A stretch of 31,208 nucleotides of DNA, from positions 1 through 31,208 of IMG/VR virus record IMGVR_UViG_3300040807_001405. One strand, 5' to 3'. Source of the stretch: a virus. Below are positions 1 to 31,208 of the stretch, piece after piece; position 1 is the first letter of the stretch; each line of letters starts with the position of its first letter. The notes beneath the pieces are model-generated. The model did not search any database and was not told the origin of the DNA. It worked only from the letters and a program-made list of their open reading frames with translations. The position numbers and the translations under genes are program-made.

Positions 1-147
1 AGTCTGGATCGAAGGGTAGTCGAGGAAGAGCGTCGAACTCGACGCGGCGAATCCCTGCATCGGCATCAGGTCGGAGACGAGGAGGACGCCGTCGCCCGCG
101 TTCAAGGATCCCGCCGTTCCCTTCCCGTCGGTCGGAAGGGTGACGTA
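1..147. repeat. Terminal direct repeat, left copy
   Basis: Bases 1-147 repeat at 31062-31208 with two mismatches (127 G versus A at 31188; 136 A versus C at 31197). The reading frame of one protein runs through the repeat and stays open when the ends are joined. This is best read as overlap from closing a circular or circularly permuted genome, not as two separate genomic loci. Both differences are synonymous in that protein (Asp GAC/GAT and Leu CTT/CTG). Confidence 0.93.
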
Positions 148-6225: not shown

Positions 6226-6645
6226 TCAGACCTCGTACCAAGTGAAGACGGGAGCCGCCGTCGAGGCGACTTCGAAGTTGAACGTCACGGTCGCGTCGCC
6301 GTCCTGCGTCGAAGCGAACGCGACGGAACCGAAGACCGCGTCGAACGCGATCGAGCAGTCGGCGGTCCCTCCGATATCATTCCAGCCGAGAACGATATTC
6401 CCGCCTGCGGCACTTCCGTCGATGCCGACCGCGCTCGTCGTCGCCGCGTTATATTCGGGAACGCCTCCGGCGGATCCGGTGATGTCGACGACGGCGGACG
6501 CGACTCGACTCGCGCCCGAATCACCGAAGCCGGTCACGACCGAGGTCGTCCGCGAGATCGTCGCCGACCACGTATTCAGTTGAGCCTTGTACCCGGTCGG
6601 CATCGTCACCGATCCGTCCGATCCGATCGCTGTAGTCGTTCCCAT
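6226..6645 (-). CDS. Major tail (tube) protein-like, paralogue 1
   Basis: A 139-residue protein starting MGTTTAIGSDGSVTMP. It shares the ordered motifs of its neighbour at 5779-6222 (AIGSDG, LNTWSAT, TGSAGG, TVTFNFE), so the pair arose by tandem duplication. The gap to the next gene is only three bases. It lies between the tail-terminator-like gene and the second copy, the normal place for a siphophage tail-tube gene. It has no signal peptide or enzyme motif. The assignment rests on gene order and composition; the duplication is directly visible. Confidence 0.75.
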   Translation of the reverse strand: MGTTTAIGSDGSVTMPTGYKAQLNTWSATISRTTSVVTGFGDSGASRVASAVVDITGSAGGVPEYNAATTSAVGIDGSAAGGNIVLGWNDIGGTADCSIAFDAVFGSVAFASTQDGDATVTFNFEVASTAAPVFTWYEV

Positions 6646-13741: not shown

Positions 13742-14926
13742 TCAGAGGATCCTAAAATCGAACCCGGAGCGGGCGGAGGTATCGAGGCATCGGAGAGCCA
13801 GAGCCAACGCACAGACGCCGTCGTCGTGCATACCCGACGGAGCCTCGTAGCGAACGCCGGTTCGCGTGTAGATATACTCGAAAGTGTCGCACTCGACGCG
13901 TAGCCATCCGTCAGGAATCGAGACCCGACGCGTCTGGAACGCGGACGCGAGTCCTTCCATGATCTGCTGCTTCGACGTCGCGGAGAACTTGAATCCCTCG
14001 ACGCGAGGCGACTTCCGTTGAAGACCCTCGACGATCGGGTCGCCGACGCCGGTCGAGTCGATCAGGGATGGAGCCTCGCCGAGAAGACCGAGGATCCGAC
14101 GCTCGGTCTCGGCCCACGGTCCTTGCCACCGTTCGAGCATCGCGACCCTTCCGTCCTTGTCGAGACCGACGACGACCGTCCAGTCGACCGACTTCGCGAG
14201 GTCGATCCCGATCGCGACGACCGGGTCCGTCGAGAGCGGCGAGACGCAGGCGGCGATCGAGTCGAGTCCGAACGGGTTCCCGCCGTCGTCCGCCGGGATG
14301 CCGAGGAACTCCTGCTCGAAGACGTGCGCCGGGAGTTCCTGCCTCGCCGCCTCGATCTCGCCTTCCGGGATCGTCGGGTTCGTCGTCGTCGGGAGCCGCC
14401 ACGATCGCCAGCCGCCGTCGCCGATCTGCCCGCGCTCGAAGCACTGGTGGAAGAACGATCGACCCTTCGGAGTACCAAGGAACCACGCGTCGCCTTGCCG
14501 GTCCGCGAGCGTCGCCCGGATCGTCTCCTGCCACGCCGGACCGAGGTCGCGGACGATCCCAGCCTCGTCGATGATCACGCGGTCGTAGCGGCGTCCTCGT
14601 CCCGCGTCGACCGAGTCGAGAGACCAGAAGTCGATCGAGCCGCCGGAGACGAGATCGAACCGACGCTCGACGCGGTCCGCCTTGACGATCGCGGGCGCGA
14701 GGATCTTCTCGACGTCCCTCCACGGATCCGCGAGGTAGCGGTAGGTCGGAGCGAACCAGCCGACCTCGCCACCGTCGATCGCTCGGTCGATCGCGAGTTG
14801 GATACCGAGATGAGTCTTCCCGAATCGCCGACCGCATTCGAGGACGTTGAACCGAGCGGACTCGTCGAGGACTCGACGCTGCCCGGCGTGGAGCGCGTCT
14901 TCGATTGGTTCGATCGCGATCTTCAT
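13742..14926 (-). CDS. terL: Terminase large subunit
   Basis: A 394-residue packaging motor. The ATG at 14926 overlaps the mom-like stop as ATGA; upstream ATGs read into the mom-like gene in another frame. The ATPase part shows Walker A CGRRFGKTH (31-39), Walker B VIIDEA (117-122) and the FLGTPKG coupling motif (149-155). The nuclease part shows Asp242 in IGIDLAKSVDWT, Asp290 in LIDSTGVGDP, and Asp368/Asp369 in MHDDGV. All key residues are present, so both translocation and cutting should be intact. It is compact for the family. The small-terminase-like gene is about 4 kb upstream, separated by the tail-fibre, ParB-like and mom-like genes. Confidence 0.95.
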   Translation of the reverse strand: MKIAIEPIEDALHAGQRRVLDESARFNVLECGRRFGKTHLGIQLAIDRAIDGGEVGWFAPTYRYLADPWRDVEKILAPAIVKADRVERRFDLVSGGSIDFWSLDSVDAGRGRRYDRVIIDEAGIVRDLGPAWQETIRATLADRQGDAWFLGTPKGRSFFHQCFERGQIGDGGWRSWRLPTTTNPTIPEGEIEAARQELPAHVFEQEFLGIPADDGGNPFGLDSIAACVSPLSTDPVVAIGIDLAKSVDWTVVVGLDKDGRVAMLERWQGPWAETERRILGLLGEAPSLIDSTGVGDPIVEGLQRKSPRVEGFKFSATSKQQIMEGLASAFQTRRVSIPDGWLRVECDTFEYIYTRTGVRYEAPSGMHDDGVCALALALRCLDTSARSGFDFRIL

Positions 14927-15603
14927 CCCGGAAGCGCACGGGTCGGAGTTGCACCGCCCTCTCCGGACTGGACGCCCGGTGCATCGCTGTAAATGCTTCG
15001 TGCGCGCTTTGGGAATGGCTGAGACTGCAAAGGTATACGATACTGCTTTGAATTTCCAATCAGTTTCGCATAGCAGTGTTTTCCGCCTGTTGAACGCGAT
15101 GGCAAAGACCACGCATCATCTTTTCCGATACTGCCGCTTGCTATTGCTCCGCCAATTGTTCGCGGATGAACCCATCGACCTTTGAACAAATATTCTCTAC
15201 CTCCGTCGTTTTTTCCAAAGTACAAAAATCCGCTTGCTTGATAGATTCCACCGTGATGACCTTGTCCGGTATCGGCATATGAAACCAAGACCATCAATCC
15301 GGGATTAGTTCTCGCAACCATTTTCGTTGCGATTGCGATGATTCGAGAGACCGGAGTTTGATGCCTAGCAAGTGCGACTCTAGCCAACTCGGTAATTTGT
15401 GTTGATTGACATCGAAAGCGTTTCACGACCGGAGGCATCGGATTAGTAAAAATCACGCATCCGATGAAAGCACCGTTTTCCCAAACACCGATCTTCACAG
15501 TCTTGAATTTTGGGATGCATTTTGAATAATGCCATCGCTCACAAGCGTATGTTGCTGCTTTCCCAGAACACCAGTCGAGTTTGAGATCAGGCTTCAAACT
15601 CAT
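14923..15603 (-). CDS. mom: Mom-family DNA adenine modification protein
   Basis: A 226-residue protein starting MSLKPDLKLDWCSG. Mu Mom converts certain DNA adenines to N6-carbamoylmethyladenine and protects phage DNA from many restriction enzymes; it has an acetyltransferase-like fold. Family features visible here are DWCSGKAATYACERWHYSK (10-28), KIGVWENGAFIGCVIF (37-52), ELARVAL (72-78), VSYAD (107-111), QGHHGGIYQASGF (114-126), GKHCY (174-178) and QPFPKRA (195-201). The ATG at 15603 lies inside the ParB-like gene (17-nt overlap), and the stop overlaps terL as ATGA. Part of the gene is much lower in GC than its surroundings (22 of 60 bases at 15181-15240), a sign of transfer. Confidence 0.88.
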   Translation of the reverse strand: MSLKPDLKLDWCSGKAATYACERWHYSKCIPKFKTVKIGVWENGAFIGCVIFTNPMPPVVKRFRCQSTQITELARVALARHQTPVSRIIAIATKMVARTNPGLMVLVSYADTGQGHHGGIYQASGFLYFGKNDGGREYLFKGRWVHPRTIGGAIASGSIGKDDAWSLPSRSTGGKHCYAKLIGNSKQYRIPLQSQPFPKRARSIYSDAPGVQSGEGGATPTRALPG

Positions 15604-16066
15604 GTCCGCATTCCGGGCATTTTGTCGGGTTCTTCTCGTCGAGTTTCGATTGCTCGTCTGCCGTGACCGCCGCAAAGTCAGGGATCTTCAGCGAGTCCAT
15701 TTCTTCGTCGGAGAACGCGAGCAGGTCGCGAGTCTCGTCGTCCATCGAGTCGAGCAGCGAGCGGAGAACCTCGTCGTCCCACTCCGCGAGTTCGGCGGTG
15801 CGGTTGTCCGCGATACCGAACGCGGTCGCCTGCGTCTGGTCGAGCGTCGTTCGGACGATCGCGATCTCGGTCCAGCCGAGACGCTTCGCCGCTTCGAGCG
15901 TGCCGTTGCCCGCGATGACGACCTCACGCTGATCGACGACGATCGGCTTCTGCTGTCCGAACGCCCGGAGCGAGTCGCGTATCGCGGCGAGGTTGCGTTC
16001 GTCGTGCTTCCTCGCGTTCGCCGGGTCCGGCGAGAGCGAGTCGATCGGAACCGTCTCGGTCTGCAT
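15587..16066 (-). CDS. ParB-like nuclease-domain protein with C-terminal CPxCGH motif
   Basis: A 159-residue protein starting MQTETVPIDSLSPDPANARK, with an AAAGGAAG ribosome-binding site. The ParB/sulfiredoxin-like domain shows PANARKHDERN (15-25), QQKPIVVDQREVVIAGNGT (38-55) and ADNRTAEL (86-93), typical of phage ParB-domain proteins. In other phages this domain is often fused to an adenine or cytosine methyltransferase. Here no methyltransferase follows in frame; instead a mom-like gene overlaps the 3' end. The C-terminus is KCPECGHEFEA, half of a zinc knuckle. It may help target or regulate DNA modification. The usual GHGR-like segment is GNGT here, so nuclease or nucleotide activity is uncertain. 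Confidence 0.88.
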   Translation of the reverse strand: MQTETVPIDSLSPDPANARKHDERNLAAIRDSLRAFGQQKPIVVDQREVVIAGNGTLEAAKRLGWTEIAIVRTTLDQTQATAFGIADNRTAELAEWDDEVLRSLLDSMDDETRDLLAFSDEEMDSLKIPDFAAVTADEQSKLDEKNPTKCPECGHEFEA

Positions 16067-21882: not shown

Positions 21883-22334
21883 GCGTCCTCCATCGTCGAC
21901 TTGATGCTCGCGACTCGTTTCGCCGGTACGCCGTGGACGTTCTCGAAGTCGTTCTCGCATCGAACGACGACGACGGTATATCCGCGCTCCTCGGCGATCG
22001 CTCGATATATCGAGATTTCGGATCGCTTCCGGAAGACGTTCGTGACAGCGATCCTCGGCATCGAGCAGATCATCGCCTGCTCGACGCGATCGCGGCACCA
22101 TCGGTGGGCGAGGTCGAGGAGGTCCGGATCCCAGAACTCCGCGTAGGTCTTCCGGTTCTTGTGCGCCTCGATATCGAACCAGTCGTCCGCCGCGTAGCAG
22201 GCTCCCGGTGCGAGGATCAGACCGACGGAACTCTTCCCGCTTCCGGGATGTCCTCGAACGACGAAGAGCGTTCGCCGGGTCTGCTTCCTCTTCGCTTCGC
22301 CGTGTAGGCGTTCCGCTTCGTCCTTCTTCGTCAT
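21879..22334 (-). CDS. P-loop kinase (N4BP2 / polynucleotide-kinase-like)
   Basis: A 151-residue protein starting MTKKDEAERLHG; the ATG at 22334 overlaps the upstream stop as TGATG. Walker A GHPGSGKSS (28-36) is followed by ADDWF (50-54), an Asp-Asp pair typical of the N4BP2-like or AAA_33 group, then a Trp/His-rich stretch (LAHRWCRDRVEQAM), a RIAVTNVF strand and the NVHGVP motif (132-137). The family includes polynucleotide kinases and related phosphotransferases. It sits next to two nucleases. It could phosphorylate DNA or RNA ends during repair or counter host RNA cleavage. The substrate is unknown. Confidence 0.82.
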   Translation of the reverse strand: MTKKDEAERLHGEAKRKQTRRTLFVVRGHPGSGKSSVGLILAPGACYAADDWFDIEAHKNRKTYAEFWDPDLLDLAHRWCRDRVEQAMICSMPRIAVTNVFRKRSEISIYRAIAEERGYTVVVVRCENDFENVHGVPAKRVASIKSTMEDA

Positions 22335-22903
22335 CAGCACTCGCTCCCGTCGATCATCTGGTCCGCCGCGTAGACGAGACCGGTGTAGATCCTCGTCCAC
22401 GAATCGAGGTCGCTCGACTTTCCCTTGAACGTCGGCGCGACTCGTTCGACCTTCTCGCGAGCGACGAGTAGTCGCTCCGATGACCACGTTCGGATCTCGT
22501 CGATCCTCTGGGCGTGTTCCTTCTCGACGACCTGCCGCTCGACCTCGTCCGCGCTCCGGAGCGTCGCTCGTTCGATCTGGACGATCTGGCGGTTCTTCTC
22601 GTGACGGTACGCGTCGCCGACGTCGTGGAACTTCGGTTCCTTCCAGCCGGTCGTCTTCCGTACCGCGAGGATCGCTTCGCGGAGAGCCATCTGGTTCACG
22701 GTCTCCGGTCCCTTCACCGCGTGCGGCTTGTCGAACGATCGGAACCAGACTTCGCGGGTCATCTCCGCCGTCGGGTTCCAATCCTTCCAGAGACTACGAA
22801 GGAGAGTCCAGTTCTCTTCCCACGTCGGAACGCGCGTCTCGGATCTCCTGCTCGATACGAGCGGCGCGAATTTCATCGTCGGTTGGTTCGGGTTCGTTTC
22901 CAT
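22334..22903 (-). CDS. Hypothetical replication protein, possible helicase loader
   Basis: A 189-residue protein starting METNPNQPTMKF. It overlaps the 3' end of the initiator-like gene by 110 nt in another frame. The middle has a helical pattern (EENWTLLRSLW; EMTREVWFRSFD; VNQMALREAILAVRK; KFHDVGDAYRHEKNR) that loosely recalls the G39P-type helicase loader/inhibitor family. The second half is a charged coiled coil (DEVERQVVEKEHAQRIDEIR). The position after the initiator-like gene is where phages place a helicase loader. The similarity is only in pattern. A shorter form starting at Met10 is possible. Confidence 0.72.
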   Translation of the reverse strand: METNPNQPTMKFAPLVSSRRSETRVPTWEENWTLLRSLWKDWNPTAEMTREVWFRSFDKPHAVKGPETVNQMALREAILAVRKTTGWKEPKFHDVGDAYRHEKNRQIVQIERATLRSADEVERQVVEKEHAQRIDEIRTWSSERLLVAREKVERVAPTFKGKSSDLDSWTRIYTGLVYAADQMIDGSEC

Positions 22904-23642
22904 CGTTCCATCTTTCTTGGTTGAAGTACGTCGAGCCGAGCGGGACGAACTTCAGTTCGCTCTCCCCGGCTTCGATCTTCCGAATGTACGAAGCGGCGTC
23001 GTCGCGTGTCTGGTGCGCGATGATCGACGCGGCGTCCTTGAGTTCGATCCCTTGCTTCTTCGCGAGCGATCGGATCGACCGCTCGATCGCGGCAACGCCG
23101 ACCTTCCTCCCGGACTTCCTGCCCGGAACCCACGCCGACCAGATCAGATCCGACCACGCCGGGTCGAGCCGTACGCGTGCGGGAGAGGTAGAGGCGGAGG
23201 AGGAGGAAGAGGTAGAGGCGTAGGAGTAGGAAGTCTCCGCAGTAGGGGAGACCGTAGCCGGGACCGTAGTCTCGACTGTAGTCCCCTCTGTAGTCGCTTC
23301 ATCGTAGAGCGGAGAGAAGTCCTTCCCGTTCCGGTGCAGCGTCGCCTTGACGTAGCGAGGAGCGTGGTCCGGCCAGTCGTGGACGAGGAGCCTCGCCGGT
23401 CCCGCGACCGGATCGACGAGCCTCGACCGGACGAACGCGGCGACGAGGTCGGTCGAGTCTCCCGGCCATTCGAGAGCCGTCGCGATGTCCTCGTCGTCGT
23501 GCCGACCGATCTCGCCGGTCGGAGCGTGCTTCCCCGCGAACCGCCAGAGGAGTCCGGCGAGTCCGATCGCGTGCGGCCACGGTACGCCGAGGACGGCGGC
23601 GAGCCTTCGGATCTTCGGAGAGGTGTAGGTTCCTTCGAGCAT
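22794..23642 (-). CDS. Replisome organiser-like replication initiation protein
   Basis: A 282-residue protein starting MLEGTYTSPKIRRL, with AGAAGGA upstream. The first 75 residues (RLAAVLGVPWPHAIGLAGLLWRFAGKHAPTGEIG; DDEDIATALEWPG in outline) look like the winged-helix N-terminus of phage replisome organisers. A Ser/Thr-rich linker (about 125-155, with TSSSSSASTS) follows, then a helical C-terminus (KQGIELKDAASIIAHQTRDD). In lambda, the origin lies inside gene O, and here the DNA coding for the linker holds 12-bp-period repeats. It should bind an origin and recruit the host helicase. No polymerase or helicase is encoded, so host replication proteins would be needed. Confidence 0.78.
   Translation of the reverse strand: MLEGTYTSPKIRRLAAVLGVPWPHAIGLAGLLWRFAGKHAPTGEIGRHDDEDIATALEWPGDSTDLVAAFVRSRLVDPVAGPARLLVHDWPDHAPRYVKATLHRNGKDFSPLYDEATTEGTTVETTVPATVSPTAETSYSYASTSSSSSASTSPARVRLDPAWSDLIWSAWVPGRKSGRKVGVAAIERSIRSLAKKQGIELKDAASIIAHQTRDDAASYIRKIEAGESELKFVPLGSTYFNQERWNDGNEPEPTDDEIRAARIEQEIRDARSDVGRELDSPS
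23197..23298 (+). other. Candidate origin / iteron region inside the initiator gene
   Basis: A purine tract ends in GAGGAGGAGGAAGAGGTAG (23197-23215), identical to 30099-30117. Five 12-bp units follow at 23239-23298, each with GTAG at the same place: GCAGTAGGGGAG, ACCGTAGCCGGG, ACCGTAGTCTCG, ACTGTAGTCCCC, TCTGTAGTCGCT. They code for Thr/Ser-rich linker residues. Related GTAGTCGC and GACTACAG elements occur at 30114-30145. The layout suggests initiator binding sites, but low-complexity coding sequence is an alternative. Confidence 0.45.
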
Positions 23643-23678
23643 GGCGATCCTTCTAAGCAGAACCCGCCGCCGCGCACA

Positions 23679-23740
23679 AGGAGCAACAAGGCGCGACGGC
23701 GAGTTCCGAGAGAAGTCTTCGCGAGCGACCGGTTGCTCCT
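23679..23740. repeat. Inverted repeat AGGAGCAAC in the 114-bp intergenic gap
   Basis: AGGAGCAAC (23679-23687) is repeated in inverted orientation at 23732-23740, 44 bases apart. The gap 23643-23756 separates the PD-(D/E)XK nuclease gene from the initiator-like gene. The nine bases are also the core of the ribosome-binding leader used by the early genes, so one arm is an antisense copy that could pair with those leaders. No promoter is clear here. It may be coincidence. Confidence 0.4.
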
Positions 23741-23756
23741 CGGTCGCGCGTAGAGT

Positions 23757-24191
23757 CTAACCGAGAACGCGGAACCGTGCGAGTTCGATCTTCACGATCG
23801 GCTCGACGTCTCCCGCGTCTCGCGTCTGCCGAGTTCGACCGCCGAACTCGACGAAGCCGTTCCAGTGCTGGCCGTCGATCCGAGCGAACCGGATCTCGCC
23901 GGTCCGATCCTCGACGACGAAGAACGAGGATCCCGCGAGCCGAGCGAAGCGACGGAGCGCGTCGACCTTCCGCAGCGAGAGCATGACGTCGGGATAGTCT
24001 CCCCACCTCATCTCGCGCCGCTTGTATTCGATCCACGCGACGACTCCGAAGCCGGGACGGCTGGCGGCGAAGTCGACCTCGTAGGATCGCGGAAGTTTGT
24101 CGAGGGTGCAGTTCCATCTTCTCTCGATTCGCTTGGATGCCTCGACCTCGTTCGCGAGCGTCTCGGCGTTCTCGTAGATCGGACGACCCAT
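23757..24191 (-). CDS. PD-(D/E)XK nuclease-like protein
   Basis: A 144-residue protein starting MGRPIYENAETLANEV; the ATG at 24191 overlaps the SSB-like stop as TGATG. The motif run is YEVDFA with Asp40 and then Glu55-Tyr-Lys57 in VAWIEYKRR, which is a (E/D)xK active-site pattern, with a supporting Glu in the first helix. A short helix (KVDALRRFARLAG) and a strand ending in FFVVED follow. The spacing fits compact phage PD-(D/E)XK nucleases. Together with the RecT-like and SSB-like genes it makes a recombination module, where it could be the exonuclease or a repair nuclease. A distinct exonuclease is otherwise missing. Confidence 0.72.
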   Translation of the reverse strand: MGRPIYENAETLANEVEASKRIERRWNCTLDKLPRSYEVDFAASRPGFGVVAWIEYKRREMRWGDYPDVMLSLRKVDALRRFARLAGSSFFVVEDRTGEIRFARIDGQHWNGFVEFGGRTRQTRDAGDVEPIVKIELARFRVLG

Positions 24192-24646
24192 CAGAACGGG
24201 ATATCCGAATCGTCGTTCGCTCCGTCGTCGTGCCGACCGTCGTCGAGGTTCTGCGGATCGCCGACGCTCGACTCCTTCGGGTTCGCGGAGATCCCGCAGA
24301 CGCGCGTCCGGTCGTAGCCGTCCTCGACCTCTACGGTGAGTTCGCGACCGATGAACTTCGCGGGATCGAAGAGCGAGTATCCCGATGAGTCCGTCTCGTG
24401 GTACGCCTTCCGAGCGTCGTCGCCGATCGCCTTCGCGAGCCGACCGAACTTCCACGCTCCCTTCTCGTTGATGAACTCGCTGATCTTCGCGGTCCCGTCG
24501 ACCGTGACGAACTCGACGATCGCTCCGGAGAACTTCGCCGTCGTGACCTCCGGCGAGTACGAGGCGATCCGCATCCGGTACTCGCCCGCCTCCGCGTCCG
24601 GGATGTCCTTCGTGTTCGTCGCTTCCGCTTCAGGCTTGAACTTCAT
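24191..24646 (-). CDS. Single-stranded DNA-binding-like protein
   Basis: A 151-residue protein starting MKFKPEAEATNTKDIP; the ATG at 24646 overlaps the stop of the HTH gene as ATGA and has AAAGGAAG upstream. The body is beta-rich like an OB fold (GEYRMRIAS; AIVEFVTVDGT; FIGRELTVEVEDG) and resembles DUF669-type phage proteins. The C-terminus is acidic and ends DDSDIPF, the classic tip by which bacterial SSBs recruit partners. It probably coats ssDNA and brings in host or phage recombination proteins. The fold is inferred; the tail is directly visible. Confidence 0.82.
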   Translation of the reverse strand: MKFKPEAEATNTKDIPDAEAGEYRMRIASYSPEVTTAKFSGAIVEFVTVDGTAKISEFINEKGAWKFGRLAKAIGDDARKAYHETDSSGYSLFDPAKFIGRELTVEVEDGYDRTRVCGISANPKESSVGDPQNLDDGRHDDGANDDSDIPF

Positions 24647-24831
24647 GGTGTTTCTTCCTTTCCGATCATCTGATCGAGAGAGTCGATCTCGACGAACACG
24701 CGTCCGCCGATCTTCTTCGAGGCGATCTTCCCCGCCTTCGCCCAGTCCCGAATCGTATCGAGACTCGGCTTCCATCCTGTACGCTCTTCGACGAGCGCGG
24801 GAACGTCTGCGATCTTCACGGGCTGAGCCAT
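24643..24831 (-). CDS. Small helix-turn-helix protein (excisionase/AlpA-like)
   Basis: A 62-residue protein starting MAQPVKIADVPALVEERTG. It reads as a winged helix or MerR-like DNA-binding domain: DVPALVEERTG, then SLDTIRDWAKAGKI, then the wing KIGGRVFVEIDSLDQMI, typical of excisionase, AlpA or small terminase-type HTH proteins. It starts 16 nt inside the RecT-like gene and ends in an ATGA overlap with the SSB-like gene. There is no integrase in the genome, so excision is unlikely; regulation of this operon or DNA binding for replication is a better guess. Confidence 0.8.
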   Translation of the reverse strand: MAQPVKIADVPALVEERTGWKPSLDTIRDWAKAGKIASKKIGGRVFVEIDSLDQMIGKEETP

Positions 24832-25487
24832 ACGAGCATCCTCCGAGTTTGGTCGGCGTCGAGTTCGTCGATCGAGTTCACGCCAGCCTTCTCGATCGCT
24901 TTCCGCTTGATCTCTTCGCCGTCCTCGCGAGCGGCGAGGAGGTCTTCGATCTTCTCGTGGTCCGTCTTCTCCGGTCGAGGGATCTCGCTCTCGCCGTGCG
25001 CTTCGACGTAGACGGGAGCGCATCCGAGCGCGTCCGGTGCGTGCGTTCGGTATCCCTGCGAGATCGCTCTCGCGAACAGCATCGCCTTCGGGTACTTCTT
25101 CCAGTTAGTCCCTCCGAGTCCGGCCTTCTTCGCGTCGTCGAGCGTGAACGTCGTCGTCCCGATCTCCTCTCGATCTCCGGTCGGCATGATCTCGAAGAAC
25201 GTGATCGAGCAGGAGTCGTCGGTCGAGTCGGCGCGGTAGGTATATTTACCCGACCGCTTGATCGCCGCCGCCATATGGTTCGCTCCGAGTACGACCTTAC
25301 CCTGAATGATATGGAGGCTCATCGCGTCGTACGGGTTGAGTCCCATCCCGCGACCGACGATCAGTTTCGTCGCGCATTGTGCTGCGTCTCGGTGTTCCGG
25401 GAACATCCCGGACGCGGCGAAGATCCTTCCCATTTCGACGAGGTCGGTCTCGCCCGGTGTCGTGTTCGTAGTGAGTTCGGTCGTCAT
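24816..25487 (-). CDS. RecT-like single-strand annealing protein
   Basis: A 223-residue protein starting MTTELTTNTTPGETDLV, coupled to the gene before it by ATGA. The motif order GRGMGLNPYDAMSLHIIQGKVVLGANHMAAAI (51-82 in outline), then TTTFTLDDAKKAGL, then KYPKAMLFARAISQGYR and DALGCAPVYVEAHGE, matches a phage RecT/Bet-type recombinase group. The charged C-terminus ends MLVWLSP. It anneals ssDNA and, with a nuclease and SSB, supports recombination-dependent replication. All three partners are nearby here. Confidence 0.78.
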   Translation of the reverse strand: MTTELTTNTTPGETDLVEMGRIFAASGMFPEHRDAAQCATKLIVGRGMGLNPYDAMSLHIIQGKVVLGANHMAAAIKRSGKYTYRADSTDDSCSITFFEIMPTGDREEIGTTTFTLDDAKKAGLGGTNWKKYPKAMLFARAISQGYRTHAPDALGCAPVYVEAHGESEIPRPEKTDHEKIEDLLAAREDGEEIKRKAIEKAGVNSIDELDADQTRRMLVWLSP

Positions 25488-25732
25488 CGGTTCTCCAGTC
25501 GCTTGAGTCGTGCGTTGATCTTCGCGAGTTCTTCGTCGAGTCGTAGTCCCGGCTTGCGTTCGCGGTCCTCTCGGTCCTGATTTCGGTACGCTTCGAGTTC
25601 CGCGAAGAGAGCGAGCAGGACCGTCATGTCTTCAGCGATGAAGCCGACGCGAGCCTCAGCGATCTTCTTCATCTTGTCGAGTGGCCGGAGTTCAAGGTCT
25701 TCCCAGCCGTCGGTGCTTCGGTCGGTCGTCAT
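25484..25732 (-). CDS. Small coiled-coil hypothetical protein
   Basis: An 82-residue protein starting MTTDRSTDGWEDLELR. It overlaps its upstream and downstream neighbours by ATGA. After an acidic start the sequence is nearly all helix (KMKKIAEARVGFIAEDMTVLL; RLDEELAKINARLKRLENR) with heptad spacing at the end, so it probably forms a coiled-coil oligomer. I recognise no family. It directly precedes the RecT-like gene, so co-expression with recombination is expected. Confidence 0.75.
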   Translation of the reverse strand: MTTDRSTDGWEDLELRPLDKMKKIAEARVGFIAEDMTVLLALFAELEAYRNQDREDRERKPGLRLDEELAKINARLKRLENR

Positions 25733-25947
25733 CGTTCTTCTCCTTCGCCGATCAGGTAGTAGTCGTGAACGTAGAGGGTCGCTCCGAGACGGAGGACTCC
25801 GTCGCCCGCGTAGACGAGATCGGCTCCGGTGGCGTTCCGTAGATACGCCTGTATCTGGTGAGGGTCTGAGTATGACGCCGCATCCTTCGCTTCCGTCGTG
25901 AGGCAGAGCCGTACCGCGTCGACGGTGATTTCTGTTTCGTTCTGCAT
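25729..25947 (-). CDS. Small hypothetical protein
   Basis: A 72-residue protein starting MQNETEITVDAVRLC. It has the second type of leader in this genome (AAAGGAAG) and a 12-bp stem-loop upstream at 25977-26003. The sequence looks like a small alpha/beta fold ending in VLRLGATLYVHDYYLIG and has no known motif. It begins the coupled set that leads into the RecT-like gene. Confidence 0.72.
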   Translation of the reverse strand: MQNETEITVDAVRLCLTTEAKDAASYSDPHQIQAYLRNATGADLVYAGDGVLRLGATLYVHDYYLIGEGEER

Positions 25948-25976
25948 GGTCTTCTTCCTTTCTAGAAGAGGGTAAA

Positions 25977-26003
25977 GGGAGACCGGGAACGTCCCGGTCT
26001 CCC
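25977..26003 (-). terminator. Perfect 12-bp stem-loop between genes
   Basis: GGGAGACCGGGA and TCCCGGTCTCCC pair without mismatch around a 3-nt loop. It begins eight bases after the stop of the 26011 gene and is followed by TTTACCC, a weak pyrimidine tract. It could end some transcripts or mark an RNA-processing site. It belongs to a family of related stem-loops at 26521, 28028 and 29099. Confidence 0.6.
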
Positions 26004-26010
26004 CGTTCGG

Positions 26011-26487
26011 TCATCGGAACGAGACTCGCGTGAGCGTCGAGTCTTCGCGTGCCGGGTAGTAGGAGGACTCCCGCTTCGAGGGATCCGAGATCGAGACGAT
26101 CTTGATGTCGGTGCCGCTCGTCCCTACTCCGCGAGAGACGACCCGGCAGACGTGCCAGACCTCTCCGAAGAGACGGAGGACGAGGTCGCCGAGTTCGACT
26201 TGATACGGTCGAACGAGTTCGCAGTTCTCCGGTCCGTAGCGGACGCGGTTCTCGAACGCGTTCGAGATCCACGTCTCGCGTCCCGCATGGTCGACGTGGA
26301 ACTGGAAGAGGTTGTCGCTGGGACGACTTCCCTCGGCGATGACCGTCGCTGGGTAGTAGTCGAGACCGGACTCGTGGAAGAGATCGGTGAGCCGCTCTTC
26401 GATCTTCTTCGCGTCTTCGAGGCTTCCGCAGAAGACGGTCGCTTCGGTTCGGTCGTGCGTCGTTTCGGTCTTGGTGATCTGCTGCAT
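26011..26487 (-). CDS. Hypothetical early protein
   Basis: A 158-residue protein starting MQQITKTETTHDRTEA, with the standard early leader GAACAAGGAGCAACG. It has two apparent parts: an N-terminal half with alternating helix and strand (FCGSLEDAKKIEERLTDLF) and a C-terminal half that looks like a small beta-barrel (VELGDLVLRLFGEVWHVCRVV). The sequence is acidic overall. No family is recognised. As an early-region gene it may be a host-takeover or anti-defence protein. Confidence 0.75.
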   Translation of the reverse strand: MQQITKTETTHDRTEATVFCGSLEDAKKIEERLTDLFHESGLDYYPATVIAEGSRPSDNLFQFHVDHAGRETWISNAFENRVRYGPENCELVRPYQVELGDLVLRLFGEVWHVCRVVSRGVGTSGTDIKIVSISDPSKRESSYYPAREDSTLTRVSFR

Positions 26488-26520
26488 GTTCGTTGCTCCT
26501 TGTTCGGTCGTTCGGTCGTA

Positions 26521-26549
26521 GGGGAGACCGGGAACGTCCCGGCCTCCCC
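26521..26549 (-). terminator. 13-bp stem-loop between genes
   Basis: The arms 26521-26533 and 26537-26549 pair over 13 positions around a 3-nt loop. The only imperfection is A opposite C on the plus strand, which becomes a G-U pair in the minus-strand RNA, so the structure suits RNA read from that strand. It begins nine bases after the stop of the 26558 gene. Confidence 0.6.
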
Positions 26550-26557
26550 GCGTTCGG

Positions 26558-26770
26558 TCAGTCGACGAGAAGGATCTTCATCATCGACTCGTGGTTCGCC
26601 TGCATCTTCGCGAGTTCCTTCTCGGCGTTCTCGTAGAGCCAGCATCGGTTCGACCAGCCTTCGCGGCGAGCCTCGCGAGCCTGCTCGACGATGAACTCGC
26701 GAGTCTTCTTCCAGCAGGAGAAGGCGTTCATCAGGACTCGGGCGGTCTCTTCTGGGGTCTGCTTGTTCAT
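26558..26770 (-). CDS. Small hypothetical early protein, first gene after P3
   Basis: A 70-residue, mainly helical protein starting MNKQTPEETARVLMNAF, with Trp/Cys residues in CWKKTREF and NRCWLYEN. It is the first gene after promoter P3 and has the standard early leader. No family is recognised. Being first after an apparently strong promoter suggests it is made early and in quantity. Confidence 0.75.
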   Translation of the reverse strand: MNKQTPEETARVLMNAFSCWKKTREFIVEQAREARREGWSNRCWLYENAEKELAKMQANHESMMKILLVD

Positions 26771-26773
26771 GGT

Positions 26774-26789
26774 CGTTGCTCCTTGTTCG
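26774..26789 (-). promoter_or_regulatory. Conserved early Shine-Dalgarno leader
   Basis: CGAACAAGGAGCAACG (minus strand) precedes the 26770 gene. The same string occurs at 26491-26506, 27623-27638, 28002-28017, 29072-29087 and 29791-29806; a variant (GCAG replaces GCAACG) is at 28559-28572. AAGGAG is a strong ribosome-binding core, but the conservation extends well beyond it. Confidence 0.85.
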
Positions 26790-26800
26790 GTCGGTCGGTT

Positions 26801-26887
26801 CGAGGAACGCTTCCCCGATGTCCCAACTATAACCGGACTTTCCCCCAGTGTCTACCCTCTTCCTCGATTTTTCTCGATTTTCTCCGA
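26801..26887 (-). promoter_or_regulatory. Early promoter P3 with 5' stem-loop and phased A-tracts
   Basis: The minus strand has -35 TAGACA (26854-26849), a 17-bp spacer and -10 TATAGT (26831-26826). Upstream are two tandem A-rich elements, GATTTTTCTCGA (26866-26877) and GATTTTCTCCGA (26876-26887, plus-strand reading), about ten bases apart, as in an UP-type element. About two bases after the predicted start (near 26819), 26817-26801 forms a seven-pair stem with a G-U pair and a 3-nt loop, at the likely mRNA 5' end. Confidence 0.78.
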
Positions 26888-27078
26888 GGACGGATATCGA
26901 GCCGGAAGCCGAGTTCCGCCGCCTTCGAGATGACCGCGTCGAGGTCGCGGCGATACGGGTTCCCCGGCGAGAGCCGGACGACGAGGTCGCCGGGATCGAA
27001 GCCGTCGAACCGGGTGGCCGCCGCCCAGAGGCGGCGACCTTCCCGGAGGAGGAGACGGTGGGCGCGAGGAGCAGTCAC
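26827..27078 (-). CDS. Small basic hypothetical protein, GTG start
   Basis: An 83-residue protein starting MTAPRAHRLLLREGRR (GTG). The GTG at 27078 overlaps the upstream stop as GTGA. Its sequence (LWAAATRFDGFDPGDLVVRLSP; RRDLDAVISKAAELGFRLDIRP) suggests a small alpha/beta protein with basic ends (Arg/Lys-rich near 62-70). Its stop lies inside the -10 element of promoter P3, so transcripts through this gene enter the next unit. No family is recognised. Confidence 0.78.
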   Translation of the reverse strand: MTAPRAHRLLLREGRRLWAAATRFDGFDPGDLVVRLSPGNPYRRDLDAVISKAAELGFRLDIRPRRKSRKIEEEGRHWGKVRL

Positions 27079-27419
27079 GATCCCGCCTCCAGTTCGATGG
27101 CCTTCTCTTCGAGTTCGAGCGACTCGACGAGAGCCTCGACGATCGCGTCCTCGTCGTCGAGTTCGATCCAGTTCGTCGAGCGGTGCGCGATGATCGGGAG
27201 GAAGACCGAGACCATCGCGTCCTCGCGGTCGCGCCTTGTGATCTCGACGATCTCCGCGCTCGCGTCGTCGCTCCACGGTTCGTGACCTGCTCGCTCGACG
27301 TCTGCGGTGACGCGAATCTTGAGCCAGTAGATTCCGGGTCCGACCTCGATCCCGTTGTGCTTGTACGCCTTCTCGATGACGAGTTCCTCGTCGAGAGTGA
27401 ATTCGATGGTCTCGCTCAT
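27075..27419 (-). CDS. Hypothetical acidic early protein
   Basis: A 114-residue acidic protein starting MSETIEFTLDEELVIEK. It overlaps its neighbours by ATGA (27419-27416) and GTGA (27078-27075). Beta-like first half (FTLDEELVIEK; YWLKIRVTADV) and a Glu-rich helical end (DEDAIVEALVESLELEEKAIELE). The acid load could mimic DNA or bind basic host proteins, but I recognise no family. Confidence 0.75.
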   Translation of the reverse strand: MSETIEFTLDEELVIEKAYKHNGIEVGPGIYWLKIRVTADVERAGHEPWSDDASAEIVEITRRDREDAMVSVFLPIIAHRSTNWIELDDEDAIVEALVESLELEEKAIELEAGS

Positions 27420-27619
27420 TGGTCTTCTCCTCCGTATACGTCGCTGTTCGCGTAGCCGTGCGACTCGCCTGCGGCGATGACGATCCCGCCGTCGTTCGCG
27501 AGTACGGCGTGAACTCCGCAGATGAGCGGGTACGTCGGCTGGATCGCGATCGAGACCGAGAGGTCGCCGTGTTCTTCTTCGAGTCTTTCAAGTTCTTCGA
27601 TGAGGGTAGAGATATACAT
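27416..27619 (-). CDS. Small hypothetical early protein
   Basis: A 67-residue protein starting MYISTLIEELERLEEEHGDLSV. The pattern of an acidic N-terminal helix followed by a short strand with DLSVSIAIQP and a later VLANDGGIVIAAGE resembles small phage proteins that begin with a helix and give an E-D-G turn. It has the standard leader but no stem-loop in the 28-bp gap upstream, the one exception in its class. Confidence 0.72.
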   Translation of the reverse strand: MYISTLIEELERLEEEHGDLSVSIAIQPTYPLICGVHAVLANDGGIVIAAGESHGYANSDVYGGEDQ

Positions 27620-27647
27620 TTTCGTTGCTCCTTGTTCGTAGCGGGTT

Positions 27648-27998
27648 TCAGGAATTCCAGTTCTGTATCGTCGCGAGAGGCAGTCGGTCCTGCCCGGACG
27701 CCTTCGAGTTCCACTCCATGTTGAAGGGTCGGTCGGAGTAGAGCCTGAAGCACGTTTCTTCGCAGTAGAGCGGGTGGCGGAAGCACTCGCGGTTCCCCAG
27801 CGAGCGAACCTTGCGTCGAGTCCACGATCCGGTTGAACGGACGGCTCCGTCTTCGATCTCGACGAGCGCGACCTGCACCCAGTCGCCTTTCCTTTCCATG
27901 ACCTTCACCGCTTGAATGCTGACGGTCTTGTCGCTTCGTCGAACGTTTCCGGTATGGAGGAGGATGTCTCCGGCTTCGATCTTCGTAGTGGTCTGCAT
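27648..27998 (-). CDS. Hypothetical early protein with Cys-rich C-terminal half
   Basis: A 116-residue protein starting MQTTTKIEAGDILLH. An N-terminal beta-barrel-like segment (DKTVSIQAVKVMERKGDWVQVALVEIEDG) is followed by a segment with ECFRHPLYCEETCFRLY, where three Cys and a His could bind metal. It has the standard early leader and a 10-bp stem-loop upstream. No family recognised. Confidence 0.74.
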   Translation of the reverse strand: MQTTTKIEAGDILLHTGNVRRSDKTVSIQAVKVMERKGDWVQVALVEIEDGAVRSTGSWTRRKVRSLGNRECFRHPLYCEETCFRLYSDRPFNMEWNSKASGQDRLPLATIQNWNS

Positions 27999-28027
27999 CG
28001 TCGTTGCTCCTTGTTCGAGTAGGGGAA

Positions 28028-28052
28028 GGGAGGCGGGTACGTCCCGCCTCCC
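28028..28052 (-). terminator. 10-bp stem-loop between genes
   Basis: GGGAGGCGGG and CCCGCCTCCC pair around a 5-nt loop. It begins eight bases after the stop of the 28060 gene and is followed by TTCCCCT and then the conserved leader of the 27998 gene. No long U-run is present, so complete termination is doubtful. Confidence 0.55.
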
Positions 28053-28059
28053 CGGTTGG

Positions 28060-28554
28060 TCATCGCTTGAATCGGTCGGAGAAGACCCGGGAGATCGCGA
28101 CCTTGCTCTTCCAGTTGATCGGGTCGGCGTGGTGGATCTCGGAAGAACCGGCGACGCGGAAGACGAGCCGAACCTCTCCGCAGTCGAGGTAGGAACCGAG
28201 GACGGTTCGACCGTTCTCCCACTCGTCGCAGCAGACGATGAAATCGCCTCGCTTGAGATCCTTCGCGAAGACCTTCGGCTGGTCGTCGATCTGATCCCGC
28301 GACTTCGCGAAGGAGTACGCCGCCGCCTTCGCCTTCGCGGCGGTGCCGTAGTCGTAGACCTCGAACGCGTGGACCGTGCCGTTTTCGATCTCGACGTCGT
28401 AGGCTTCGGTGACGAGTCGGCTGTCGCTCGTCGCGACGCCGAAGCGGTCGCGGTTGTTGAGACCGAGACGCTGCTCGATCTGGGACCCGTTCGCGAGTTC
28501 CCAGACGTTTCCGAATTCTCCGTCGCGGTCCTGAATCTTGATGGCGGTCTTCAT
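28060..28554 (-). CDS. Hypothetical early protein, first gene after P2
   Basis: A 164-residue protein starting MKTAIKIQDRDGEFG, with the variant leader GAACAAGGAGCAGCACC. It is the first gene after promoter P2. The sequence seems to have a beta-rich N-terminal half, an Ala/Lys helix (TAAKAKAAAYSFAKSRDQ) and a C-terminal half with paired Cys (FIVCCDEWENG). No family is recognised. Its promoter position suggests early expression. Confidence 0.75.
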   Translation of the reverse strand: MKTAIKIQDRDGEFGNVWELANGSQIEQRLGLNNRDRFGVATSDSRLVTEAYDVEIENGTVHAFEVYDYGTAAKAKAAAYSFAKSRDQIDDQPKVFAKDLKRGDFIVCCDEWENGRTVLGSYLDCGEVRLVFRVAGSSEIHHADPINWKSKVAISRVFSDRFKR

Positions 28555-28582
28555 GGTGCTGCTCCTTGTTCGAGGTCGATCC

Positions 28583-28658
28583 GGCGGGACGTTCCCGCCT
28601 GAGAGGACTATACCCGACGTTCTACTACTTGTCGAGTCCTTCGGGGACTTTCTCCGAA
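28583..28658 (-). promoter_or_regulatory. Early promoter P2 with 5' stem-loop and upstream element
   Basis: The minus strand has -35 TCGACA (28635-28630), a 17-bp spacer and -10 TATAGT (28612-28607). The hairpin GGCGGGA-ACG-TCCCGCC (28599-28583) begins almost at the predicted start (near 28600). Upstream, GACTTTCTCCGA (28646-28657, plus-strand reading) is the counterpart of the A-tract elements of P1 and P3, ten bases beyond the -35. Confidence 0.8.
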
Positions 28659-28678
28659 GATTCCTGAAGAAAGTCCCC
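28643..28678 (-). terminator. 11-bp stem-loop between early genes, overlapping the P2 upstream element
   Basis: GGGGACTTTCT and AGAAAGTCCCC pair over 11 bases, with a 14-nt loop. It begins 13 bases after the stop of the 28691 gene. One arm coincides with the A-rich element above promoter P2, so it may serve as both an end for upstream RNA and a protein-binding palindrome. There is no U-run. Confidence 0.5.
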
Positions 28679-28690
28679 GCCGCTCGCCGG

Positions 28691-29068
28691 TCAGATCAGC
28701 GTCGAGATCGCGTCGAAGAACTCGGTTCGCTTCAGGAAGACCTTCCACCGCTTCGCCTCCTCGACGGCGTCCTTCTTCCACGATCGTTTCCGGAAGCCGT
28801 ACCGTCCGCCGGGGACGTCGTCTGCGAAGAGTCGGACGATCGAGCCGTCGATCATCTCGGCGAAGGCGTACGAGAGATCCCAGTTGGGGTAGCCGGGATC
28901 GGAGAGGAGCCGGACGCGGAGGAACCGAGCGAATCGAGGCTGAGCCCAGATCGGTCGTCCGTCGTCGAAGTACGGGACGGAGTCGATCGACGGTCGTCCC
29001 TCCTGCGGTCCTCGCTCCTCGAAGTTCTTCATCCCGTTGAGTCCGTTCGTTTCGGTGAATCCTTGCAT
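28691..29068 (-). CDS. Hypothetical early protein
   Basis: A 125-residue protein starting MQGFTETNGLNGMKN, with the standard early leader and an 11-bp stem-loop upstream. The sequence has YPNWDLSYAFAEMIDG and RYGFRKRSWKKDAVEEAKRWKV, aromatic and basic patches of a small globular protein. No family is recognised. Read with the genes on either side it belongs to the early accessory set. Confidence 0.74.
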   Translation of the reverse strand: MQGFTETNGLNGMKNFEERGPQEGRPSIDSVPYFDDGRPIWAQPRFARFLRVRLLSDPGYPNWDLSYAFAEMIDGSIVRLFADDVPGGRYGFRKRSWKKDAVEEAKRWKVFLKRTEFFDAISTLI

Positions 29069-29098
29069 GGTCGTTGCTCCTTGTTCGTAGTAGGGGAA

Positions 29099-29126
29099 GG
29101 GAGACCGGCGACGCTGCCGGTCTCCC
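29099..29126 (-). terminator. 11-bp stem-loop between genes
   Basis: GGGAGACCGGC and GCCGGTCTCCC pair perfectly around a 6-nt loop. It begins nine bases after the stop of the 29135 gene, followed by TTCCCCTACTAC and the conserved leader. It is the same type as the stem-loops at 25977, 26521 and 28028. Confidence 0.6.
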
Positions 29127-29134
29127 CGATTCGG

Positions 29135-29788
29135 TCAGCCGATCGACTTCGAGGTGTCGAACATCGACGCCATGACCATCTGGCCGAGCGTTCGAGGATT
29201 CTCAAGATGGGCGCGTTGACGGCGACCCTCGTCCGCCGCGAGGTTCTCGCGTTGTAGTCCGGTCGTGATCGTGCGAGCCTCCGAGCATTCCGCGACGCGA
29301 ATCGCGTAGCGGAGGAAGGCGATGTCGGCTTCGTTACCGAGCGAGATCGCGGCGGCGAGTCGACGGTCGAGCGTGACGAGCCGCTGACCGGCGGCGAACT
29401 CCTTCGCCTTCGCCTTCTGCTCGTCGGTGAGTTCGACGGTCGCCGGAGCGACGGTCGCTTCCTTCGACGCCGCCTCCTCGGCGGTCGCCTTGCCGGGATA
29501 GACCTTGACGACCTGAAGGTCTTGGTTCTCGACCGTCCACTTGTAGGATCGACCGTCGCGTTCGGCGTAGCGAGCCTGATCCCGGTAGAAGTCGTTCCGG
29601 TCGGCGAGCCACTTCTCGGCGAGTTCCTTCGATCGGTTGATGACTTCGAGTTGACCGGCGGCGTTCGCGACGCCGTAGACGTGTCCGTCGGCTTCGACGG
29701 CGGCGAGGACGGCGGCTCGCTTGCAGTTCTTCGAGGTGGTGAGTTCGCCGTTGCGGACGCCGTAGAAGGTCGAGGTCGAGGTGGTCAT
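29135..29788 (-). CDS. Hypothetical first early protein, after P1
   Basis: A 217-residue protein starting MTTSTSTFYGVRNGE, with the standard leader. An N-terminal alpha/beta stretch (ELTTSKNCKRAAVLAAVEADGHVYG) is followed by helices with Tyr/Arg-rich sequence (DFYRDQARYAERDGRSYKWTV), an Ala/Lys/Glu-rich linker and a helical end. No family is recognised. It is the first gene after P1, at the start of the early operon. Confidence 0.75.
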   Translation of the reverse strand: MTTSTSTFYGVRNGELTTSKNCKRAAVLAAVEADGHVYGVANAAGQLEVINRSKELAEKWLADRNDFYRDQARYAERDGRSYKWTVENQDLQVVKVYPGKATAEEAASKEATVAPATVELTDEQKAKAKEFAAGQRLVTLDRRLAAAISLGNEADIAFLRYAIRVAECSEARTITTGLQRENLAADEGRRQRAHLENPRTLGQMVMASMFDTSKSIG

Positions 29789-29812
29789 TTCGTTGCTCCT
29801 TGTTCGAGGTCG

Positions 29813-29901
29813 GGCGGGACGTCCCCGCCGCTGAGAGGACTATCGCCTATTTCCTCGCTCGTGTCTACTACTTCGCCTGATTTTCTCCGAATTTTTCCGA
29901 G
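29813..29901 (-). promoter_or_regulatory. Early promoter P1 with 5' stem-loop and phased A-tracts
   Basis: The minus strand has -35 TAGACA (29867-29862), a 17-bp spacer and -10 GATAGT (29844-29839). The stem-loop GGCGGGG-ACG-TCCCGCC (29829-29813) starts about three bases after the predicted start (near 29832). Upstream lie two A-rich elements in phase: GATTTTCTCCGA (29879-29890) and GAATTTTTCCGA (29889-29900), plus-strand reading, like those of P3. Confidence 0.75.
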
Positions 29902-30146
29902 AATCCCCGATCACGGGTACGGGAGCGAGGGATCGCCTCTCCCGCCTCGGAGGGATTCGGGGACGGACGACGCGTCCGGGACGCGGGAACGCGGGAGACG
30001 GGATCCTCCGGCCTCGTAGGGATCCTCGATCCGATCTCTCTCTCCTCGCTCCCTGAGCGGGATAGGAAGAGGAGGAGGGAAGGGAGGAGGAGGAGGAAGA
30101 GGAGGAGGAAGAGGTAGTCGCGACTACAGACCGAACTACAGACCGG
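29902..30146. other. Long intergenic region between late and early operons
   Basis: With P1 this is the only non-coding stretch longer than 300 bases (29789-30146, 358 bp). Next to P1 is a GC-rich stretch (29902-30060) in which I see no gene or terminator. Then a purine-rich tract (30061-30113), the palindrome at 30114-30127 and two 12-bp direct repeats up to 30145. No U-run terminator is visible after the late-operon stop at 30147. Confidence 0.7.
30099..30145 (+). other. Second candidate origin or iteron region
   Basis: GAGGAGGAGGAAGAGGTAG (30099-30117) is identical to 23197-23215. GTAGTCGCGACTAC (30114-30127) is a perfect 14-bp palindrome. ACTACAGACCG occurs twice, 12 bases apart (30123-30133, 30135-30145). 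Read on the other strand, the units in the initiator-like gene also contain GCGACTACAGA with a 12-bp period. The match in both sequence and period suggests a shared binding protein, probably the initiator. Confidence 0.45.
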
Positions 30147-31208
30147 TCAGGAGATGAGCGAGTCGGAGATCGTTGGAGAGGTCGACGACGGAAGAGCGAG
30201 ACCGAGGTCGCTTCCGATTCGGAAGAACCGCTCGAACTCGCGAGCCATCGCGCCGTCGCTCGCGCCGATGTTGTTCGTCACGCTCGCCGTGAACTCGTCG
30301 CCGACCGCGTAGCGGTTCGCGCCGCCGAGGATCTGGTACGCGAGTCCGCCGTTCTCGACTCGCGGCATCTCCGCGATCACGAGGTCGTCGATGAAGACGT
30401 CCGATCCGCTCGCGAGGTTGCTGGAGAACCGGATATCGATCTCGCATCCCTTCGGGATCGACTGCGGCGAGAAGACCGTCGTGGTGAATATCTGGTACGA
30501 CGTCGTGAAGTCGCCCGATGCGATCTGCATCGACATCGCTCGACCGCTGACGAGGTTGTTCAGGATCACGCCGCTCGAATCGCGAACCGAGATCGTGAGC
30601 GTGACGCCGGGAACGACGGAGGCGTACTTCGCCGCGACCGAGATCGAGTACGGTCGATCCGGGTTGATCTCTCCGAGCGAACCCGACGTCGATCGGAGCG
30701 GCTGCGTCAGGCGATGCGTCGTGAGTCCGTTCCCGGTCATCTTCAGAGCGTCCGATCCCGTGTACCCGGAACCCGCCGCGTAGAAGTTCGTTCCCGCCGT
30801 TCCGGTCTCGTACGTCCAGCCGGTCGCGGTATTCGAGGAGAAGTCCTCGAAGTCGGAGTTCGTGCAGACGTTCCGTCCCGGCGTTCGACCGCCGTCGACG
30901 CGAGGACTCGCGACCGTGATCGTTCCCTTCGTCCCGGTTCCCTTCGGCCACTCCTCGTCGAGAGACGGCACCGCTCGCTGGCCGATCACGCGGAAGATCT
31001 CCTCGCCTTCCGCGACCGCTCTCGACGTCGCGTCTCGAATGCACGACGCGCGAACCGTCTCAGTCTGGATCGAAGGGTAGTCGAGGAAGAGCGTCGAACT
31101 CGACGCGGCGAATCCCTGCATCGGCATCAGGTCGGAGACGAGGAGGACGCCGTCGCCCGCGTTCAAGGATCCCGCCGTTCCCTTCCCATCGGTCGGCAGG
31201 GTGACGTA
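30147..31208 (-). CDS. Tail-tip or receptor-binding-type structural protein, C-terminal part (joins 495-1)
   Basis: Codons 166-469 and the stop are at 31061-30147; bases 31062-31208 repeat codons 117-165, already present at 147-1. The protein is 469 residues. The middle of this part (TNSDFEDFSSNTATGWTYE; YAAGSGYTGSDALKMTGNG; then VFIDDLVIAEMP) has the layout of a CBM4/9-like carbohydrate-binding beta sandwich: Gly- and Asn-rich, with a final FIDDLVI strand. A short end (ISDSLIS) follows. It is the last gene of the late operon. It may bind host-surface sugars, complementing the tail-fibre tip at 16.1-17.0 kb. The ligand is not readable from the sequence. Confidence 0.85.
   Translation of the reverse strand, partial: YVTLPTDGKGTAGSLNAGDGVLLVSDLMPMQGFAASSSTLFLDYPSIQTETVRASCIRDATSRAVAEGEEIFRVIGQRAVPSLDEEWPKGTGTKGTITVASPRVDGGRTPGRNVCTNSDFEDFSSNTATGWTYETGTAGTNFYAAGSGYTGSDALKMTGNGLTTHRLTQPLRSTSGSLGEINPDRPYSISVAAKYASVVPGVTLTISVRDSSGVILNNLVSGRAMSMQIASGDFTTSYQIFTTTVFSPQSIPKGCEIDIRFSSNLASGSDVFIDDLVIAEMPRVENGGLAYQILGGANRYAVGDEFTASVTNNIGASDGAMAREFERFFRIGSDLGLALPSSTSPTISDSLIS
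31062..31208. repeat. Terminal direct repeat, right copy
   Basis: Matches bases 1-147, with A at 31188 and C at 31197 differing. Both are third-position changes in the gene that spans the join. See the left copy. Confidence 0.93.

Follow-up and report, generated by a model that had tools for sequence, protein, structure and literature searches.

Organization of the locus and properties of the initiator

The stretch of DNA analyzed in this study, referred to as the window, comprises the 31,208 nucleotides of the IMG/VR virus record IMGVR_UViG_3300040807_001405 and contains on its − strand the gene of a replication initiator of 282 residues (22794–23642), identified by its match to a PHROG family and by a predicted model. 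The part of this gene that encodes a linker between two domains contains an array of 12-base-pair (bp) units followed by a pyrimidine-rich tract (site 1), and a similar combination of units and tract is located in a non-coding region next to the last late gene (site 2). Judged from these features, the phage appears to carry a replication origin inside its own initiator gene, like all 13 relatives examined.

The initiator matches PHROG 9474 (replication initiation protein) over residues 5–254 with an E-value of 3.6e-21 and, as a second match, PHROG 270 (E 6.6e-06), the former being found in 18 of the 18 members of a family alignment that consists of the window protein and 17 relatives. No Pfam family was found for the protein and the name of its PHROG reads only 'replication initiation protein', which bears on any homology to lambda O. 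The predicted model shows a confident winged-helix-like N-domain (about residues 1–117), a Ser/Thr linker (118–155) that is predicted to be disordered, with a predicted local distance difference test score near 33, and a helical C-domain. In a comparison of the N-domain model with known structures, those of RepA_N proteins rank first (4pql with a Z-score of 5.7 and a root-mean-square deviation of 2.7 Å for 80 aligned residues, 4pt7 with 5.4 and 5kbj with 5.3), at values that, being under 8, prove nothing, and RepA_N was absent from the families retrieved at E-values up to 1 in a profile search with the 18 members. The full-length model showed no match under an E-value of 0.001 in the PDB and seven under this threshold in BFVD, four of them with uninformative names, one termed a primosomal protein and one a replisome organizer. 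A search of the initiator profile against solved structures, whose best hit (E 0.0059) was a designed or unrelated chain aligned over the linker, was not used.

Units and tract in the initiator gene

On the coding strand, which is the − strand, the linker DNA contains the units ACTACAGAGGGG (unit 1, 23283–23294), ACTACAGTCGAG (unit 2, 23271–23282), ACTACGGTCCCG (unit 3, 23259–23270), the weaker GCTACGGTCTCC (unit 4, 23247–23258) and the weak CCTACTGCGGAG (unit 5, 23235–23246), and after them a pyrimidine-rich (NCY)n tract (23178–23234) that codes for Ser, Thr and Ala. Five units of 12 bp had already been recognized in a sequence-only reading of the window, although with a phase (23239–23298) that is here corrected to 23235–23294. 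The consensus derived from 59 units of the 13 relatives, which were chosen as full-length initiators on further phage contigs (L001–L007, L017, L018, L020, L022, L027 and L028), is WCTRYAGW followed by four free bases, position 2 being C in all 59 units, position 3 T in 55, position 7 G in 58 and position 8 A or T in 56. Since the eight fixed positions are self-complementary as consensus, the unit would fit the binding of a dimer. An array of three to five units followed by a tract is found in 14 of 14 phages including the window, and all 13 close relatives thus retain both the Ser/Thr linker and the DNA repeats, whereas relatives keeping the linker and losing the repeats had been named in the earlier reading as evidence against its proposal.

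The constraint on this region is reflected in its silent positions, which we have compared in the 14 phages to expectations from the codon usage of each phage in 200,000 simulations. T is the last base of the first unit codon in 60 of 64 cases (11.0 expected) and A that of the second in 45 of 60 (7.9 expected), with G012 (0 of 4) as exception to the latter. In the tract, Ser is encoded by TCY in 143 of 145 cases (40.2 expected; 10 of 10 in the window alone) and Thr by ACY in 64 of 64 (30.8 expected). None of the simulations matched any of the four counts, and the bias has the same direction in nearly every phage. The residues encoded by a unit vary (Thr, Ser, Ala or Pro from its first codon; Thr, Val, Ala or Ile from its second), whereas the silent third base is constant. 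Selection acts on the DNA of the units and the tract, not on the peptide, and the protein sequence of the linker would for the most part merely follow from this DNA element.

Relationship between the two sites

A scoring matrix built exclusively from the 59 units of the 13 other phages, when run on the window, identifies the two sites as its best loci, with a score of 31.4 for site 1 (units 1 and 2) and of 29.8 on the + and 21.5 on the − strand for site 2 (30107–30142), compared to 200 shuffled windows, whose best scores average 8.7 and reach at most 18.0. On the − strand, site 2 immediately follows the last late gene, abutting its stop codon, and consists of the non-coding units TCTGTAGTTCGG (unit a, 30131–30142), which is part of the dimer scoring 29.8 on the + strand, and TCTGTAGTCGCG (unit b, 30119–30130), assigned in the matrix scan, of the boundary between array and tract, ACTACCTCTTCC (30107–30118), a string that L002 and L005 likewise have after the units of their initiator genes, and of an uninterrupted run of 51 pyrimidines (30064–30114). 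The latter, consisting of purines on the + strand, is the longest purine/pyrimidine run of the genome, where the next has a length of 23 nucleotides, which is also the maximum in shuffles. A degenerate third unit, TCTCCTGACCGG (30143–30154), overlapping the stop codon of the tail gene, is possible but doubtful, as its dimer with unit a scores 15.1 on the − strand and is thus inside the range of the shuffles. Since no reading frame is assigned to site 2, the DNA syntax is present there without a coding need.

The sequence-only reading had connected the two sites by a 19-mer, GAGGAGGAGGAAGAGGTAG, which is indeed found exactly at 23197 and 30099 and nowhere else in the window, and by 11 common bases, GCGACTACAGA, which we find at 30120 on the + and at 23287 on the − strand. 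As a specific element, the 19-mer does not hold, since it is part of a low-complexity tract, falling within that of site 1 (23197–23215) and for the most part within that of site 2 (30099–30117). Genome shuffles contain some repeated 19-mer in 14 of 200 cases, triplet shuffles of the two tracts yield at least 19 shared nucleotides in 3 of 300, and 20 further 19-mers are repeated in the window. It thus constitutes the weakest evidence, and it is the units that carry the signal. The 14-bp palindrome described at 30114–30127 is present alongside two units, the coordinates of which become 30119–30142; instead of being a separate element, it combines a unit with the boundary between array and tract and also occurs in L002 and L005.

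The array of site 1 was found in 13 of 13 close relatives and site 2, beyond the window, solely in one further phage, G014. The latter emerged when IMG/VR was scanned with the boundary string, site 2 being found again in L123 (which is G014) among the 80 listed of 94 stretches. Seven of these 80 also carry units scoring at least 22, namely six initiator linkers and L123, whereas scores in the remaining 73 do not exceed 6.8. In the aligned regions, G014 and the window share about 94% identity, and site 2 is at the same place in both, the only difference inside the 24-bp array being GTT to GTC, which moves unit a toward the consensus. A second set comprised eight loci with related tail genes, among them that of G014. 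Of these, L164 and L167 do not extend beyond the junction, and L166 and L168 lack site 2; L169–L171, with tail genes of 28–29% identity, show no site 2 in the sequence available at the junction. An initiator was sought in G014 and in G015–G021 and no match was found in these eight records, which are mostly fragments. The junction between late and early genes (30147–29788 in the window and after 4059 in L166) differs between these phages, with units and tract in the window and G014 and a hairpin, recognized by eye, in L166. Site 2 was also considered as an intrinsic terminator, but none was found there and the predicted folding of the strand is unremarkable (z −1.51, with 14 of 200 shuffles as good).

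The tracts of the two sites have a GC content of 0.62 (site 1) and 0.58 (site 2), and even in the phage of lowest GC content, G009 (0.49), the tract contains 53% GC. In 7 of the 14 phages, the tract ranks within the 5% of windows with the lowest stability, and in others it is of average or higher stability, whereas its constant feature across phages is the NCY triplet pattern. In the non-coding tract of G014, both purines are located, as judged by eye, at first triplet positions, which hints that the pattern matters outside coding DNA too, although such an observation is too slight to serve as evidence.

Distant members of the family

Among 20 distant family members, 15 initiator genes contain a tandem repeat scoring at least 15, compared to 11 of 229 other open reading frames of the same loci. 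In 11 of these 15, among them nine with a period of 10 or 11 bp, the period is not a multiple of three, and such repeats therefore cannot be repeats of amino acids. A palindrome, GTGCGCAC, is found two to four times in 7 of the 20 genes and forms a second class of linker repeat in the initiators of L012, L013, L037, L039, L040, L041 and L047, with a spacing of often 11, 21, 22 or 33 bp. The presence of an 8-bp palindrome at least three times in 6 of the 20 distant initiators and in 12 of the 229 other reading frames is suggestive only. PHROG 9474 includes proteins from Microcystis, Paenibacillus, Roseburia and Synechococcus phages, and three of four such genes examined have linker tandem repeats scoring at least 15. 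From these patterns, linker repeats look like a trait of the family at the DNA level. No description of an origin in the PHROG 9474 family was found in searches of the open-access literature of PMC, which is no proof of absence.

Genome record and neighboring genes

The first and last 147 bases of the window (1–147 and 31062–31208) agree at 145 positions, and it therefore probably represents a phage genome that closes to a circle of about 31.06 kb, with the two mismatches possibly reflecting a circular unit assembled from mixed strains. All gene models used are on the − strand. The genes neighboring the initiator match, in profile searches, a RecT-like annealing protein, a PDDEXK nuclease, a RusA-like resolvase and an ATPase. 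A further gene (22334–22903), overlapping the 3′ end of the initiator gene, is kept in all 13 relatives (tblastn, 31–51% identity). As family and structure searches gave no match for its product, its identity as helicase loader was not adopted and stays a guess from position. The last late gene, a tail-type gene by position, enters the window with its 3′ part (30147–31208), continues across the record ends and has its stop codon abutting site 2. A promoter-like sequence, TAGACA-17-GATAGT (29839–29867 on the − strand), is located between site 2 and the first early gene (one found, compared to 0.1 expected in shuffles). Seven early genes, at 26492, 26775, 27624, 28003, 28558, 29073 and 29792 (−), share the leader GAACAAGGAGCARC just 5′ of their ATG, which resembles start-associated sequences of some actinophages, and several of them also have a GC-rich hairpin upstream, after the preceding stop codon. 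Elsewhere, a stretch of lower GC content (0.53–0.57) at 14926–16066 (−) encodes a Mom family protein (Pfam E 6.7e-35) beside a protein with a ParB_N domain (E 4.5e-07), a possible DNA modification pair, and two adjacent look-alike genes at 5779–6222 and 6226–6645 (−), with no Pfam match, contain common repeats of 18–19 bp.

Discussion

The analysis of the window has directly revealed two elements with a shared syntax, the conservation of site 1 at the level of DNA and its conservation across the family. It supports the proposal of the sequence-only reading that both loci may be bound by the initiator-like protein, one serving as origin and the other as regulatory site or second origin. In the full explanation that we favor, to which we assign a probability of about 0.75, site 1 would be an origin bound by the initiator, and site 2 would bind the same protein as second origin or fork barrier. 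In the mechanism that we infer for initiator binding, opening and the role of site 2, dimers of the initiator would bind, via their winged-helix-like N-domains, to the five self-complementary units in the DNA of their own linker. The bound initiators would then assemble and either open the DNA or load the replication machinery at the adjoining asymmetric (NCY)n tract, with the C-domain and the product of the next gene recruiting the helicase. Replication would start at site 1, and the initiator bound to site 2 would either define a second origin or constitute a fork barrier that aids the switch from theta replication to concatemers, as proposed for oriR of SPP1.

Several observations weigh against this explanation. 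There is no AT-rich unwinding element, as the tracts contain 50–68% GC in the 14 phages, and GC skew is uninformative for an origin, its range being reached in 31 of 200 block shuffles, with purine skew likewise uninformative for its placement. Units 3–5 of the window are weaker than those in relatives. The dimer string alone is not specific, since most of the 80 listed of 109 IMG/VR stretches look like Thr-Thr-rich peptide repeats, L191 (the initiator of G006) and L123 (site 2) being the two classified individually. Units within a phage and phages within a clade are not independent and z-values thus overstate the silent-site bias, the true strength of which is lower because related units and phages were counted apart. 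Site 2 is known in only one other phage, which at 94% identity provides no test of conservation by divergence. It is absent at the tail-gene junction in eight relatives (six of a first set, in which the end of the tail gene was identified, L166 and L168) and therefore is a lineage-specific addition. No second array was found outside the initiator gene in 13 contigs of relatives that were scanned over their entire length, most of which are incomplete, with G003, whose ends overlap, seemingly complete.

With respect to site 2, it is conceivable, although unlikely, that the site is an operator, where the bound initiator would control transcription at the junction of late and early genes or block read-through from the former. 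Its location after the last late stop codon, about 250 bp upstream of a promoter-like site, and the different sequence found at this junction in relatives, as in case of the hairpin of L166, would be consistent with such a role. However, an operator would not need the long tract found beside the units, and neither a terminator nor an unusual fold was detected. We consider it improbable that site 2 is a functionless fragment of an initiator linker displaced by recombination, as might be suspected from its presence in a single lineage and from the peptide SVVRSVVATTSSSSS that it would encode in the frame of the linker, which by eye is close to the linker of L005, whereas its retention in two phages that are 6% apart, with a sole change in the array toward the consensus, argues against such origin, if weakly in light of the few changes. 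For site 1 we see no good rival, as the notion that it merely encodes a Ser/Thr-rich linker, whose short peptide repeat (TTVx) would generate the 12-bp period, with a resemblance to site 2 by chance in low-complexity sequence, is strongly disfavored and very improbable, since, despite an in-frame repeat that codes for a disordered linker, Thr-Thr repeats that yield the same dimer string in unrelated phages and the weakness of the shared 19-mer, it conflicts with third bases conserved far from codon usage, with a non-coding site of the same syntax scoring well above all shuffles and with repeats of 10 or 11 bp in distant members.

Our preferred explanation, with an origin at site 1 and a second initiator-bound site, invites a generalization that we offer only tentatively. 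PHROG 9474 initiators as a whole might write their origin into the disordered linker, with unit sequence and spacing changing by clade (WCTRYAGW at 12 bp, GTGCGCAC near multiples of 11 bp, and others). The clade of the window might open its DNA at a triplet tract that is not AT-rich and read as single strand, in a logic resembling that of DnaA-trios, and one lineage might have copied the element out as a second, non-coding origin or fork barrier. To our knowledge, the origins of most metagenomic phages are not known. If our explanation is correct, the origin of a phage with a PHROG 9474 initiator could be read from the linker of this protein, and the paired initiators and sites would provide a ready test set for changes in specificity. 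The conserved GC-neutral triplet tract also raises the question of how DNA would be opened without an AT-rich element.

The proposed arrangement shares features with three described systems. In lambda and Stx phages, PMC7466680 places the origin, consisting of iterons and a tract, in the middle of gene O and recalls that two iterons and the tract suffice for unwinding. As at site 1, these iterons are located between the parts encoding DNA-binding and C-terminal regions of the initiator, with the tract adjoining, and the sufficient combination of two iterons and a tract corresponds to the make-up of site 2, whereas the AT-richness of the tract, the four to six iterons of other sequence and the single site distinguish lambda from the window. 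For Rep of pSK41, a RepA_N plasmid, PMC5703833 describes a central linker that is encoded by the origin, thus resembling the window in the use of origin DNA for this region and in the sequence of N-domain, linker and C-domain, although the window initiator lacks a match to the RepA_N profile and the iterons differ. Finally, in SPP1, PMC6316719 and PMC3485210 describe an oriL inside gene 38 and an intergenic oriR, both bound by gp38, the latter of which is thought to stall the fork and switch the mode of replication. The sites in SPP1 are about 12–13 kb apart, compared to 6.9 kb in the window, its opening elements are AT-rich, unlike the window tract, its repeats have another sequence and no homology to gp38 was detected, and binding, described for SPP1, is for the window sites a proposal. 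In both phages, one set of repeats resides in the initiator gene and a second is intergenic, with direct repeats beside an opening element, and if our explanation holds, phages with two such sites would constitute a second case beside SPP1 for examining whether a second initiator site switches the mode of replication.

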